The notes under the pieces: generated by a model
What the model was told of the DNA's origin: nothing
Databases searched by the model: none
Seen by the model: the letters and a program-made list of their open reading frames with translations, nothing else
Program-made: the position numbers and the translations under genes
Part shown: positions 41,291 to 44,326 of the stretch, piece by piece
Layout of the letters: each line of letters starts with the position of its first letter
How positions within the stretch are numbered: position 1 is the stretch's first letter
NCBI RefSeq assembly: GCF_028368855.1
Contig: NZ_JAQNCY010000003.1
Location: 310,001 to 374,000 of the forward strand
Origin: Leisingera sp. SS27
GTDB lineage: Bacteria > Pseudomonadota > Alphaproteobacteria > Rhodobacterales > Rhodobacteraceae
Length of the DNA: 64,000 bases
Reading direction: 5' to 3'

Positions 41291-41548
41291 GGCAACAGCG
41301 GTGCGGCAAGCCGCCGCGGGATGCAAGGGGAAAGGCTTCGTCAGCCGCCGTAATATGCCGCCAGGGCAGGGGGCTGCCCCGCAAGTTTGGAGAAGGAGGG
41401 GCGCTGCCCCTCTTGGCCTTAAGGCCAATTCACCCCGGAGTATTTTGCCAAAGGTGAAAGGCATGGGCAGCGTGTTGCGGCACATTGGCGGGAAGGGTTG
41501 CACAAAAGGGGTTTTCTTTCGCCAAAACCTCCACTATGGAACCACCTC
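41291..41548. other. Intergenic region upstream of the arg leader
   Basis: This region contains a GGGGCGCTGCCCC palindrome near 41399-41411, then GGCCTTAAGGCC and the block CACCCCGGAGTATTTTGCC. It must carry the promoter for the leader and argDF and the divergent EamA gene promoter. No convincing ORF is present. Confidence 0.45.
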
Positions 41549-41602
41549 ATGATCAAACGCGCATATACCTCCATCTCGCGACGCCGACGCCGCCTGGCGT
41601 AA
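41549..41602 (+). CDS. Arginine-rich leader peptide (putative arg attenuator)
   Basis: A 17-codon ORF: ATG at 41549-41551, TAA at 41600-41602, encoding MIKRAYTSISRRRRRLA. Five consecutive Arg codons (CGA CGC CGA CGC CGC) at positions 11-15, plus one at 4, give 6 Arg in 17 codons. It ends 126 bases before argD, the first gene of an arginine operon. The layout is that of amino-acid attenuator leaders (as for his, leu, phe). The Shine-Dalgarno is weak (GGAACCACC). A bulged hairpin follows the stop codon. Translation of this peptide is predicted, not shown. Confidence 0.7.
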   Translation: MIKRAYTSISRRRRRLA

Positions 41603-41728
41603 CCGGCCCTTGATCCCCTGTGCCTGCCGTGCAGCACATCCCCCATTCGAAATCCATTGATCCACCGTTGACCCAAGGCCAGGCTTCCGTCACAGCTTTG
41701 GCTTCCACCTTTGAAAAGGATGATCCCG
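41603..41728 (+). promoter_or_regulatory. Leader region with hairpins ahead of argD
   Basis: TGTG-C-CTGC-CGT-GCAG-CACA (41619-41638) folds as an 8-bp stem with a bulged C, 17 bases past the leader stop. CCAAGGC near 41672 can pair with GCTTTGG near 41695. Just before argD, CCTT-TGAA-AAGG overlaps the Shine-Dalgarno AAAGG and could block it. No T-run is seen, so a classical intrinsic terminator is absent. This suggests a translational or Rho-dependent attenuation design rather than the textbook form. Confidence 0.5.
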
Positions 41729-42910
41729 ATGATCCCGTCCGTTCTGCCGACCTACAACCGTGCCCCGCTTGAGTTCGTCAAAGGCGAAGGCGCCTGGCTG
41801 ACCACGGCGGACGGGCGCCGCTTTCTGGATCTGGGCAGCGGCATCGCGGTCAATGCGCTGGGCCATGCCCATCCGGCGCTGGTGGAGGCGCTGACCTCCC
41901 AGGCGCAAGCCTTGTGGCATGTCTCCAACCTCTACCAGATCCCGCAGCAGCAGGCGCTGGCGGACAAGCTGGTGGAGCATACCTTTGCCGACACCGTGTT
42001 CTTCACCAACTCCGGCACCGAGGCCTGCGAGCTGGCGGTGAAGATGGCGCGCAAGTATTTCTATGAAAAGGGCCAGCCGGAGCGGGTGGAGATCATCACC
42101 TTTGACGGCTCCTTCCATGGCCGCTCCTCTGCTGGCATCGCGGCGGCGGGCTCTGAGAAGATGGTCAAGGGCTTCGGCCCGCTGCTGCCCGGTTTTGTGC
42201 ATCTGGCCTTCGGCGATCTGGACGGCGTGACCAATGCCATCTCGGACAGCACAGCGGCCATCATGATCGAGCCGGTGCAGGGCGAGGGCGGCATCCGTGT
42301 GGTTCCCGATGCAGAGCTGAAGGCGCTGCGCCGGATCTGCGACGAGCATGGCCTGTTGCTGATCCTCGATGAGGTGCAATGCGGCGTCGGGCGGACCGGC
42401 AAGCTGTTTGCCCATGAATGGGCGGGCATCACCCCGGACGTCATGATGGTGGCCAAGGGGATCGGCGGCGGCTTCCCGCTGGGCGCGGTGCTGGCCACCG
42501 AGGAGGCCGCCAGCGGCATGACCGCAGGCACCCATGGCTCCACCTACGGCGGCAACCCGCTGGGCTGCGCGGTGGGCTGCGCGGTGATGGATCATGTGGC
42601 TGATCCGGACTTCCTGGCCGAGGTGAACCGCAAGGCGGGCCTGCTGCGGCAGAAGCTGGAGGGGCTGGTGGCCGACCACCCCGAGGTGTTCGAAGAGGTG
42701 CGCGGCTCCGGCCTGATGCTGGGCCTCAAGTGCGCGGCGGCGAATTTTGATGTGGTCAACGCAGGCTACGCCAACGCACTGATCACCGTTCCGGCCGCGG
42801 ATAATGTGATCCGCTTGCTGCCGCCGCTGACCCTGACGGACGAGGACATCGCCGAGGCCGTCAGCCGTCTTGATGCCGTGGCAACAACCGTTCGCATCGG
42901 TAATGCCTGA
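41729..42910 (+). CDS. argD: Acetylornithine aminotransferase
   Basis: A 393-residue class III aminotransferase. PLP-lysine is Lys243 in MVAKGIGGGFPLG, and the conserved NSGTEACELAVKMARKYF (94 onward) and ILDEVQCGVGRTG motifs are present. It transaminates N-acetylglutamate semialdehyde with glutamate in arginine synthesis, and often also succinyldiaminopimelate. The start at 41729 (MIPSVLPTYNRAPL) follows AAAGG at proper spacing; an ATG at 41720 is an alternative. It is the first structural gene of the arg unit. Confidence 0.95.
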   Translation: MIPSVLPTYNRAPLEFVKGEGAWLTTADGRRFLDLGSGIAVNALGHAHPALVEALTSQAQALWHVSNLYQIPQQQALADKLVEHTFADTVFFTNSGTEACELAVKMARKYFYEKGQPERVEIITFDGSFHGRSSAGIAAAGSEKMVKGFGPLLPGFVHLAFGDLDGVTNAISDSTAAIMIEPVQGEGGIRVVPDAELKALRRICDEHGLLLILDEVQCGVGRTGKLFAHEWAGITPDVMMVAKGIGGGFPLGAVLATEEAASGMTAGTHGSTYGGNPLGCAVGCAVMDHVADPDFLAEVNRKAGLLRQKLEGLVADHPEVFEEVRGSGLMLGLKCAAANFDVVNAGYANALITVPAADNVIRLLPPLTLTDEDIAEAVSRLDAVATTVRIGNA

Positions 42911-42988: not shown

Positions 42989-43915
42989 ATGAACCATTTC
43001 CTCGACATCCACAAAACCAGCCCTGCCGACCTGCGCGCCATCATCGATCAGGCCAAGGCCACCAAGCAGGCGCGCCTGGGCCGCCCCAAGGCGGCGCTGG
43101 ACGATGAGCTGCCGCTGAAGGACCGGATGGTGGCGCTGATTTTTGAGAAACCCTCGACCCGGACCCGGGTGTCCTTTGACGTCGGCGTGCGCCAGATGGG
43201 CGGCCAGACCATGGTGCTGTCGGGCAAGGACATGCAGCTGGGCCACGGCGAGACCATTGCCGACACCGCCCGCGTCCTCAGCCGTTATGTGGACATGATC
43301 ATGATCCGCACCTTTGACGAGACCGTGCTGACCGAGATGGCGGAATACTCGGACGTGCCGGTGATCAACGGCCTGACCGACCGCACCCACCCCTGCCAGA
43401 TCATGGCGGACGTGCAGACCTACGAGGAGCACCGCGGCTCCATCAAGGGCAAGAAAGTTGTGTGGTGCGGCGACGGCAACAACGTCTGCGCTTCCTTCAT
43501 CCATGCGGCCGGCCAGTTCGGTTTCGACCTCACCTTCACTGGCCCGTCGCAATTGGACCCGGAGGAGGAATTCATGGGGCTTGCGCGCAAGGCAGGGTCC
43601 AGGATCACGGTTGAGCGGGATGCCTTCAAAGCGGTGGAGGGCGCCGATCTGGTGGTGGCCGACACCTGGGTTTCCATGCATGACAGCCAATCGTCGAAAG
43701 AGCGCCGCCATAACATGCTGCGCCCGTATCAGGTGAATGAAGAGCTGATGGCCCATGCGGGGCCCGACGCGCTGTTCATGCACTGCCTGCCCGCCCACCG
43801 CGAGGAAGAGGTGACAAGCGCCGTGATGGACGGGCCGCAGTCGGTGATCTTTGACGAGGCGGAGAACCGCCTGCACGCGCAGAAGGCCATCATGCGGTGG
43901 TGCCTGGGCGGCTGA
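42989..43915 (+). CDS. argF: Ornithine carbamoyltransferase
   Basis: A 308-residue enzyme that joins carbamoyl phosphate and ornithine to citrulline. The carbamoyl-phosphate loop STRTR is at residues 56-60, the segment [11 protein letters not shown] near 134, and the ornithine-binding HCLPAHR near 271. Its substrate carbamoyl phosphate comes from CarAB, encoded elsewhere in the window. It is 78 bases downstream of argD. Confidence 0.97.
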
Positions 43916-43930
43916 CGGGCTTCTGAGACA

Positions 43931-44326
43931 ATGAAGCTGAAACTTCAGATGCGCGGGCTGCCCGGTGAATACGCTGTGTCGCGGCTCGCGCCCGGTGCTG
44001 CCATGCCCGCATGGGCCAGCGGGCCGGGACTGGTGAATGTGACCCATGCCGAAGACGAAATTTCGGTTGTCTGCCTGGCCGGGCGGGTGCCGGAGGGCGT
44101 GGAATGCTCCCGCGGCTGGGCGGCTTTCCAGGTCTCGGACCTTTATGATTTTGACGCGCCGGGGGTGGTTTTGTCCGCGGTGCGGCCGGTTTCCGAGGCC
44201 GGACTTGGGGTCTTTGCCGTCTCAACCTTCTACCGCGACTACTTGCTTGTGCGGCAGGCCGAGCGCGCCGGAGCGGAAGACGCCTGGCGGGCTGCCGGGC
44301 ACCAGGTGGATGCCGCCGCCATGTAA
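43931..44326 (+). CDS. Stand-alone ACT domain protein (ACT_7/CASTOR type)
   Basis: A 131-residue protein with an ACT-like pattern: MKLKLQMRGLPGEYAVSRLAPGA, DEISVVCLAGRVPEGVECSRGWAAFQV and SAVRPVSEAGLGVFAVSTFYRDYLLV. The ISVVC strand and the GLGVFAVSTFYRDYLLV segment are typical of the ACT_7 type. In eukaryotes this domain in CASTOR1 binds arginine (established there). Here it lies 15 bases after argF, so amino-acid sensing of arginine or ornithine is a natural but unproven guess. It has no DNA-binding domain. Confidence 0.78.
   Translation: MKLKLQMRGLPGEYAVSRLAPGAAMPAWASGPGLVNVTHAEDEISVVCLAGRVPEGVECSRGWAAFQVSDLYDFDAPGVVLSAVRPVSEAGLGVFAVSTFYRDYLLVRQAERAGAEDAWRAAGHQVDAAAM

Follow-up and report, generated by a model that had tools for sequence, protein, structure and literature searches.

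The argD-argF operon of Leisingera sp. SS27 is preceded by a short open reading frame with five consecutive arginine codons, and the presence of this Arg-codon leader ahead of argD is confirmed here, together with its conservation in most of the Rhodobacteraceae genera sampled. The ORF is probably leaderless and is best explained, with good confidence, as the arginine sensor of the operon; that argDF is under arginine-responsive leader control is very probable. The read-out may lie in transcription, a placement that we make tentatively, with the balance just short of even.

The arginine-codon leader and its conservation

The window, which is the whole 64,000-nucleotide stretch of DNA analysed, belongs to a genome of 4.8 Mb in 30 contigs, and the leader, the promoter-like and RNA elements around it, argD and argF lie on its forward strand. 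The leader ORF (MIKRAYTSISRRRRRLA and a stop) occupies positions 41549–41602, with 17 codons, an ATG at 41549 and a TAA at 41600–41602, and its codons 11–15 (41579–41593) form the arginine run, CGA CGC CGA CGC CGC. A gap of 126 nt separates the leader stop from the ATG of argD, which encodes an acetylornithine transaminase (41729–42910; NF002325, 3.4e-190; TIGR00707), has the Shine-Dalgarno sequence AAAAGGA at 41714–41720, and is followed by argF, encoding an ornithine carbamoyltransferase (42989–43915; NF001986, 4e-133; TIGR00658). The initial annotation had reported a 17-codon ORF with five adjacent Arg codons 126 nt 5′ of argD, in front of argD-argF; the coordinates bear out the ORF and its codon run, the profile matches confirm both genes, and the check that it proposed, conservation of an Arg-rich short ORF upstream of argD in relatives, also came out in its favor. 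We note that ATGATCCCG is present as a tandem repeat at the argD start (41720–41737), which gives a second in-frame ATG at 41720, and that an ACT_7 domain protein (43931–44326; PF13840, 7.7e-12, with PF21631) begins 15 nt after argF and may be part of the operon. The CASTOR proteins, which sense arginine, contain ACT domains of this type.

Conservation was assessed in 149 Rhodobacteraceae genomes, each from a different genus, of which 147 have argD and 145 were tested, two being excluded because a contig end cuts the upstream sequence. A short ORF that opens with ATG, runs to 24 codons or fewer, contains an in-frame tandem CGA-CGn and lies no more than 240 nt from argD is present in 114 of these (115 with one ORF added that has RRR only), as against 2/145 in the control interval from −600 to −360, 1/145 on the reverse strand, and 2.6/145 in dinucleotide shuffles. 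A requirement for four or nearly four Arg codons gives 81/145 (0, 6, and 0.0 in the same three controls), and a requirement for RRR gives 87/145 (1, 7, and 1.4). All 80 of the named argD loci, the nearest of which to the window's locus are from Leisingera, pass the CGA-CGn test. With the genomes ranked by ArgD similarity the leader is present in 47/50, 46/50, 16/25 and 6/20, and it is thus near-universal close to the window's genome and rarer in the most distant Rhodobacteraceae; by the CGA-CGn or RRR test it is absent from 30 of the 145 genera. The same ORF test is passed by four of 27 argD loci from other families, these being among the matches listed from 112 genomes of the class with a match. 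In two of the four (L282 and L291) the ORF looks like the tail of an upstream gene, in a third (L273) the Arg codons are scattered, and the fourth (L268) has a 24-codon ORF that ends CGG CGA CGA CGA and a stop, 127 nt before argD and with a Shine-Dalgarno-like sequence, which from its sequence could be an independent or distant arginine leader. Upstream of argD in L282 and L291, the −10 of an argD promoter-like element is enclosed by an inverted repeat (CCGTGG/CCACGG) that has a T-run after it.

The arginine codons are held in frame and are unusual in their composition. With the start taken as the promoter-like ATG, or where several fit as the one nearest to 30 nt before the motif, a double CGACGY motif is in frame with the start in 60/61 genomes and with no stop between; the motif is present in 63 genomes, two of which have no promoter-like ATG. 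An origin of the Arg run as a simple repeat artefact is ruled out by this reading frame together with the conservation. The leaders are 9–24 codons long, and the longest Arg run among the 115 is of four codons in 65, two in 28, three in 13, five in eight, and six in one. Among the 82 strict leaders, defined as those with four or nearly four Arg codons, 52 contain exactly CGA-CGC-CGA-CGC, and CGA makes up 38% of the Arg codons; its share is 4.3% in a set of 24 long window ORFs, which were picked by GC3 and are not annotated genes. Inosine decodes CGA poorly. A single inosine tRNA reads CGU, CGC and CGA in most bacteria (PMC3711424). The Arg codons may also be fixed by pairing with the RNA that follows the stop, and because of this the constraints on codon and on structure are inseparable here; the near-fixed CGA-CGC-CGA-CGC makes codon identity versus amino acid directly testable. 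Two-Arg subtypes (e.g. G020, G053, G099 and G127) that end in IRRA or IRRDI have ATCCGACGAGCC or ATCCGACGAGACATC in common ahead of the stop and vary in the sequence after it. A second leader with the same codon pattern was considered for the Leisingera genome, and the other five of its six CGACGCCGACGC sites fall within open reading frames 168 codons long or longer. An Rfam search gave no match at the gathering threshold and one match at chance level (E 4).

The sequence immediately upstream of the leader resembles a promoter (P1), with a weak −35-like hexamer, TTTTCT, at 41512–41517 and a −10-like TATGGA at 41535–41540, from which transcription would begin at the leader ATG or just beside it. 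A scan for consensus promoters between 41400 and 41800 called none, and the case for P1 therefore rests on conservation. Counting from the leader ATG, T at −35 and C at −1 each occur in 68 of the 82 strict leaders, with a TA-rich box near −12. Across the family, TA occurs at −15 to −9 in 100/115 leaders compared to 9% of 528 control ATGs, and C or T at −1 in 105/115. A Shine-Dalgarno-like sequence precedes the leader in 4/115 of the leader genomes, whereas one precedes argD in 111/115. Since the promoter-like sequence is aligned to the ATG and a leader Shine-Dalgarno is rare, the transcript probably begins at the leader AUG.

Leader helices and the spacer

Pairing within the leader was examined by covariation, using as the null the pairing between arms taken from different genomes, in the 82 strict leaders or in subsets of 75 or 73 that have TTGAC at its usual position; another 34 leaders were used for the Arg-codon hairpin only. 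The leader 5′ arm GATCAA (41551–41556) is complementary to a post-stop arm TTGATC (41610–41615), and leader start and post-stop sequence covary with a z of 7.7 in a focused test. In alignment A1, 95.4% of the cells of helix 1 are paired, with four of its eight pairs invariant and two changed on both sides. In the minimum-energy fold of the window, however, the leader 5′ arm pairs with the argD Shine-Dalgarno region and not with the post-stop arm. A predicted hairpin between the Arg codons and the sequence surrounding and following the stop (41583–41607) also covaries, with z values of 3.4 in the 82 strict leaders and 3.3 in the 34 others. Both of its arms are changed in several two-Arg subtypes, as GAGC/GCTC (G020, G086, G053 and G097), GAGAC/GTCTC (G127) and GACTC/GAGTC (G067), and the match is broken in G002, G098 and G099. 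The bulged hairpin that the initial annotation saw soon after the stop does appear in the predicted fold, at 41619–41638 (z 3.6 for one half against the other, 75 genomes), although the whole leader of the window folds no better than its shuffles (z −0.51). Closer to argD is hairpin D (41676–41704), predicted before the Shine-Dalgarno sequence and followed by a CTTCC-type sequence, whose outer and inner stems covary with z values of 4.3 and 5.1 in 117 genomes.

An open scan of 1134 pairs of sequence windows in 73 genomes (background mean 0.06, sd 1.20) gave leader start with post-stop sequence at the top (z 6.4, 5.5 and 4.9), along with hairpin D (4.5) and leader start with the C-rich region (4.4); isolated pairs at z 3.0–3.5 include one between leader and Shine-Dalgarno region and one between TTGAC and the argD start, among others. 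Of the cells of the named structure, 91.7% are paired across 38 aligned Ruegeria-like loci, a level reached by none of 500 shuffles, but the structure was drawn from one of those sequences, which favors it; 33 of the cells are changed on both sides (again in 0/500 shuffles), and sliding the structure along the alignment gives 21–42%. RNAalifold applied to 62 near loci returned no useful consensus.

The spacer between leader and argD contains the sequence TTGAC (41668–41672), starting 61 nt before argD, which we regard as the −35-like box of a putative ancestral argD promoter, P2. It is found within 300 nt of argD in 106/115 leader genomes and in all 30 of the genomes that have no leader ORF, and 50–69 nt before argD in 116/147 Rhodobacteraceae genomes, compared to 18 occurrences in all between −600 and −300; a CA follows it by 23 or 24 nt in 81/117. 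Among the matches listed from other families, 16 of 27 loci have TTGAC followed, at the distance expected of a promoter, by an ATA-containing box (GATACT in nine), and within the family this combination occurs in 4/30 genomes without the leader and 0/115 with it. The sequences are most simply read as a placement of the leader, together with its own promoter, 5′ of the ancestral argD promoter, the −10 of which would have been altered later. The retention of TTGAC suggests a second, leader-independent promoter. A search for the TTGAC element elsewhere, as a D-element pattern with two mismatches, found it in 36/61 genomes and its reversed control about equally often, and it was set aside; few of the matches, among the places listed, lie before argD. 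The spacer is also C-rich and G-poor, the kind of RNA that Rho uses. From the leader stop to TTGAC the median C/G is 1.85 (above 1.2 in 98% of 102 genomes) as against 1.0 at −600 to −360. Over the 20 nt immediately preceding TTGAC it is 3.07, with 1.56 in the few measurable genomes without a leader; at −150 to −60 the values are 1.72 and 1.19 with and without the leader, respectively.

Possible read-outs of the sensor

The leader has the two general attributes of amino-acid leader-peptide attenuators, a conserved short ORF and tandem codons for the operon's own amino acid. From the compared ORFs, their codons, frame, promoter position, lack of Shine-Dalgarno sequences and helices, we infer translation of the leader, stalling, the direction of the response and a termination step, as follows. 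Transcription would start at the leader ATG, as the position of P1 suggests, and a ribosome loading on the 5′ AUG would reach the tandem CGA and CGC codons, for all of which a single tRNA (ICG) is the expected decoder. If Arg-tRNA is scarce the ribosome would slow on these codons and both leader helices (leader start with post-stop sequence and Arg codons with post-stop sequence) would stay open, whereas with ample arginine it would finish and leave, and the leader would fold. The state of the leader would then set the passage of RNA polymerase through the 126-nt spacer into argD, with termination perhaps by Rho on the C-rich, G-poor spacer or perhaps at hairpin D, such that argD-argF is induced by arginine shortage. 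As the termination step Rho is a speculative candidate, less likely than not, and one point weighs against it: a ribosome paused on the Arg codons would leave the C-rich part uncovered, and its stalling does not by itself account for Rho being stopped. Hairpin D as terminator is unlikely, a little more so than Rho. Several observations also weigh against the model as a whole: TTGAC is kept in the spacer, no consensus promoter was called, the fold of the whole leader is no better than that of its shuffles, the other arg genes examined in this genome have no such leader, and 30 of the 145 genera are without one.

Transcription attenuation in its classical form would employ the same sensor, with hairpin D as an intrinsic terminator and the RNA freed after the stop as an antiterminator that pairs with D, and this too we consider unlikely. 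The covariation of hairpin D speaks for it, as does the two-stem and U-run arrangement of the Rhodobacterales cysS leader (PMC8632094). Between the stop and argD, a hairpin of −8 kcal/mol or lower before 4/8 T is found in 67% of 82 leaders (mean best −8.4 versus −4.7 in shuffles), and one before 5/8 T in 33% (−4.9 versus −1.2); because these values exceed those of single-base-composition shuffles, an intrinsic terminator is weakened and not dismissed. However, the tests revealed no pairing in competition with hairpin D (z −1.6 for the post-stop sequence and −2.9 for the mid region), and there is thus no classical antiterminator. A terminator scan from 41400 to 41800 found none and no U-run follows hairpin D in the window; TTTT occurs within 12 nt after D in 2/38 aligned loci and 7/102 family leader genomes, and at least 5/8 T just after it in 3/38 and 29/102. 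When a stalled ribosome is modeled by ensemble folding in 75 genomes, the pairing of hairpin D hardly changes. The mutually exclusive antiterminator and terminator hairpins of trp- and his-type attenuators were accordingly not found, nor was a U-run terminator before the gene in the window. The same sensor might alternatively act on translation, the state of the leader deciding whether the argD Shine-Dalgarno sequence is paired, and the initial annotation had preferred such control to an intrinsic terminator on the strength of a CCTT/AAGG stem. That stem is possible in the window, as CCTTT-GAA-AAGG, but is not conserved: CCTT lies 3–18 nt before AAGG in 12/85 family loci and 14/75 named loci with an AAGG Shine-Dalgarno. 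The Shine-Dalgarno nucleotides do have some probability of pairing with hairpin D and the argD start in the ensemble fold, the minimum-energy fold joins them to the leader start, and a few of the 1134 pairs in the open scan link leader windows to this region (z 3.1, 2.6 and 2.5). Against this, pairing of the spacer with the Shine-Dalgarno is below the cross-genome null in two tests (z −1.9), that of the whole leader is at −0.7, and modeling of a stalled ribosome by ensemble folding in 75 genomes hardly shifts it. A conserved stem over the target Shine-Dalgarno, as expected of a sequestering attenuator, was thus not found beyond single scan windows of up to z 3.1, and this read-out is improbable; the hiding of the Shine-Dalgarno proposed in the initial annotation is unsupported. 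In its textbook form neither switch fits, since the focused tests reveal no pairing that rivals hairpin D or covers the Shine-Dalgarno, and the window has no U-run terminator.

Two further alternatives dispense with codon-level starvation or with the sensor itself. The nascent Arg-rich peptide might arrest the ribosome or sense a ligand, as the SpeFL peptide senses ornithine. Polybasic chains slow translation and the Arg run is often directly before the stop, but the run varies from two to six (only two in 28 of the 115), the rest of the peptide varies also, and codon choice is near-fixed while the peptide changes, which leaves this explanation a slim chance. Alternatively the leader could be an independent small RNA or peptide gene with argD driven mainly by P2, as might be imagined from the action in trans of peTrpL in Sinorhizobium (PMC7298713). 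The TTGAC and ATA-containing boxes of other-family loci and the persistence of TTGAC in leader genomes are in keeping with a P2-driven argD, whereas the lack of the ATA-containing box from all 115 leader genomes fits expression passing through the leader, and the proposal is improbable to much the same degree as Shine-Dalgarno pairing. With both textbook switches misfitting and the spacer C-rich, transcription attenuation is favored, with Rho narrowly preferred to hairpin D; its standing against the remaining readings taken together is about even. The fullest version of the preferred reading, in which a leaderless sensor with a 5′ AUG and hypersensitive CGA codons came to lie 5′ of an ancestral argD promoter that then changed in its −10 and kept its −35, works through Rho or another step with neither antiterminator nor Shine-Dalgarno hiding, and takes the place of ArgR, is more doubtful than likely as a whole.

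Comparison with known leaders and arginine regulation

The suggestion in the initial annotation that this could be an undescribed arginine attenuator holds insofar as the open PubMed Central literature, with most subscription papers outside the search, yielded no arginine leader for arginine synthesis in the Alphaproteobacteria; it is qualified by leaders in Salmonella and Staphylococcus aureus that sense arginine through Arg codons. Our best reading is that the general kind of sensor is known, whereas this one, for arginine, is undescribed and has an unusual read-out; on present evidence it is an amino-acid leader sensor outside the classical terminator and Shine-Dalgarno-hiding classes. If this is so, arginine synthesis joins the pathways under leader control, and the leader provides a leaderless test case with a read-out that seems to need neither textbook switch.

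The Sinorhizobium trpL leader is similar in being an alphaproteobacterial leaderless ORF that starts at the 5′ AUG of its transcript, but it is a tryptophan attenuator of trpE (PMC10117765). Also among the closest known systems is the orf34-speF leader of Salmonella, a short leader ORF whose consecutive Arg codons sense arginine by ribosome pausing, with alternative RNA structures after the stop and Rho-dependent termination within the leader. It differs (PMC6386406) in encoding a conserved peptide of 34 residues with two Arg codons in tandem, in having a Shine-Dalgarno sequence and a transcript start 516 nt away, and in controlling ornithine decarboxylase rather than arginine synthesis, whereas the argD leaders have runs of two to six Arg codons in 9–24 codons and no Shine-Dalgarno, and stand before arginine-synthesis genes in Alphaproteobacteria. 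The orf34/SpeFL product is the conserved DUF2618 peptide (PF10940) upstream of speF, while the gene downstream here is argD. The cysS leader uORFC-8-2 comes from the same bacterial order, Rhodobacterales, and is likewise a short ORF with tandem cognate codons in a first stem and a second stem before the gene, but these (PMC8632094) are Cys codons upstream of cysS with a U-run terminator, where the present leader has Arg codons upstream of argD and no U-run in the window. Rare Arg codons in the leader peptide of S. aureus rbfL likewise sense arginine limitation (PMC13009471); that leader lies at the ribosome site of its target, and arginine limitation lowers expression of a biofilm regulator rather than acting on arginine synthesis.

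Arginine synthesis genes are elsewhere under repression by ArgR, which is a DNA-binding repressor and not a leader, and which a comparative study (PMC5343134) describes as a conserved gammaproteobacterial regulator that other classes lack. An ArgR DNA-binding domain was found in none of 61 Rhodobacteraceae genomes, compared to nine of 14 control genomes, and a codon sensor in about four-fifths of the sampled genera would, if real, explain how arginine synthesis is adjusted where no ArgR is found. In the Leisingera sp. SS27 genome, the regions upstream of argG, argH, argJ, argC and carA contain no such leader; argC was located by a profile match below its cut-off, and a short two-Arg ORF overlaps its start.
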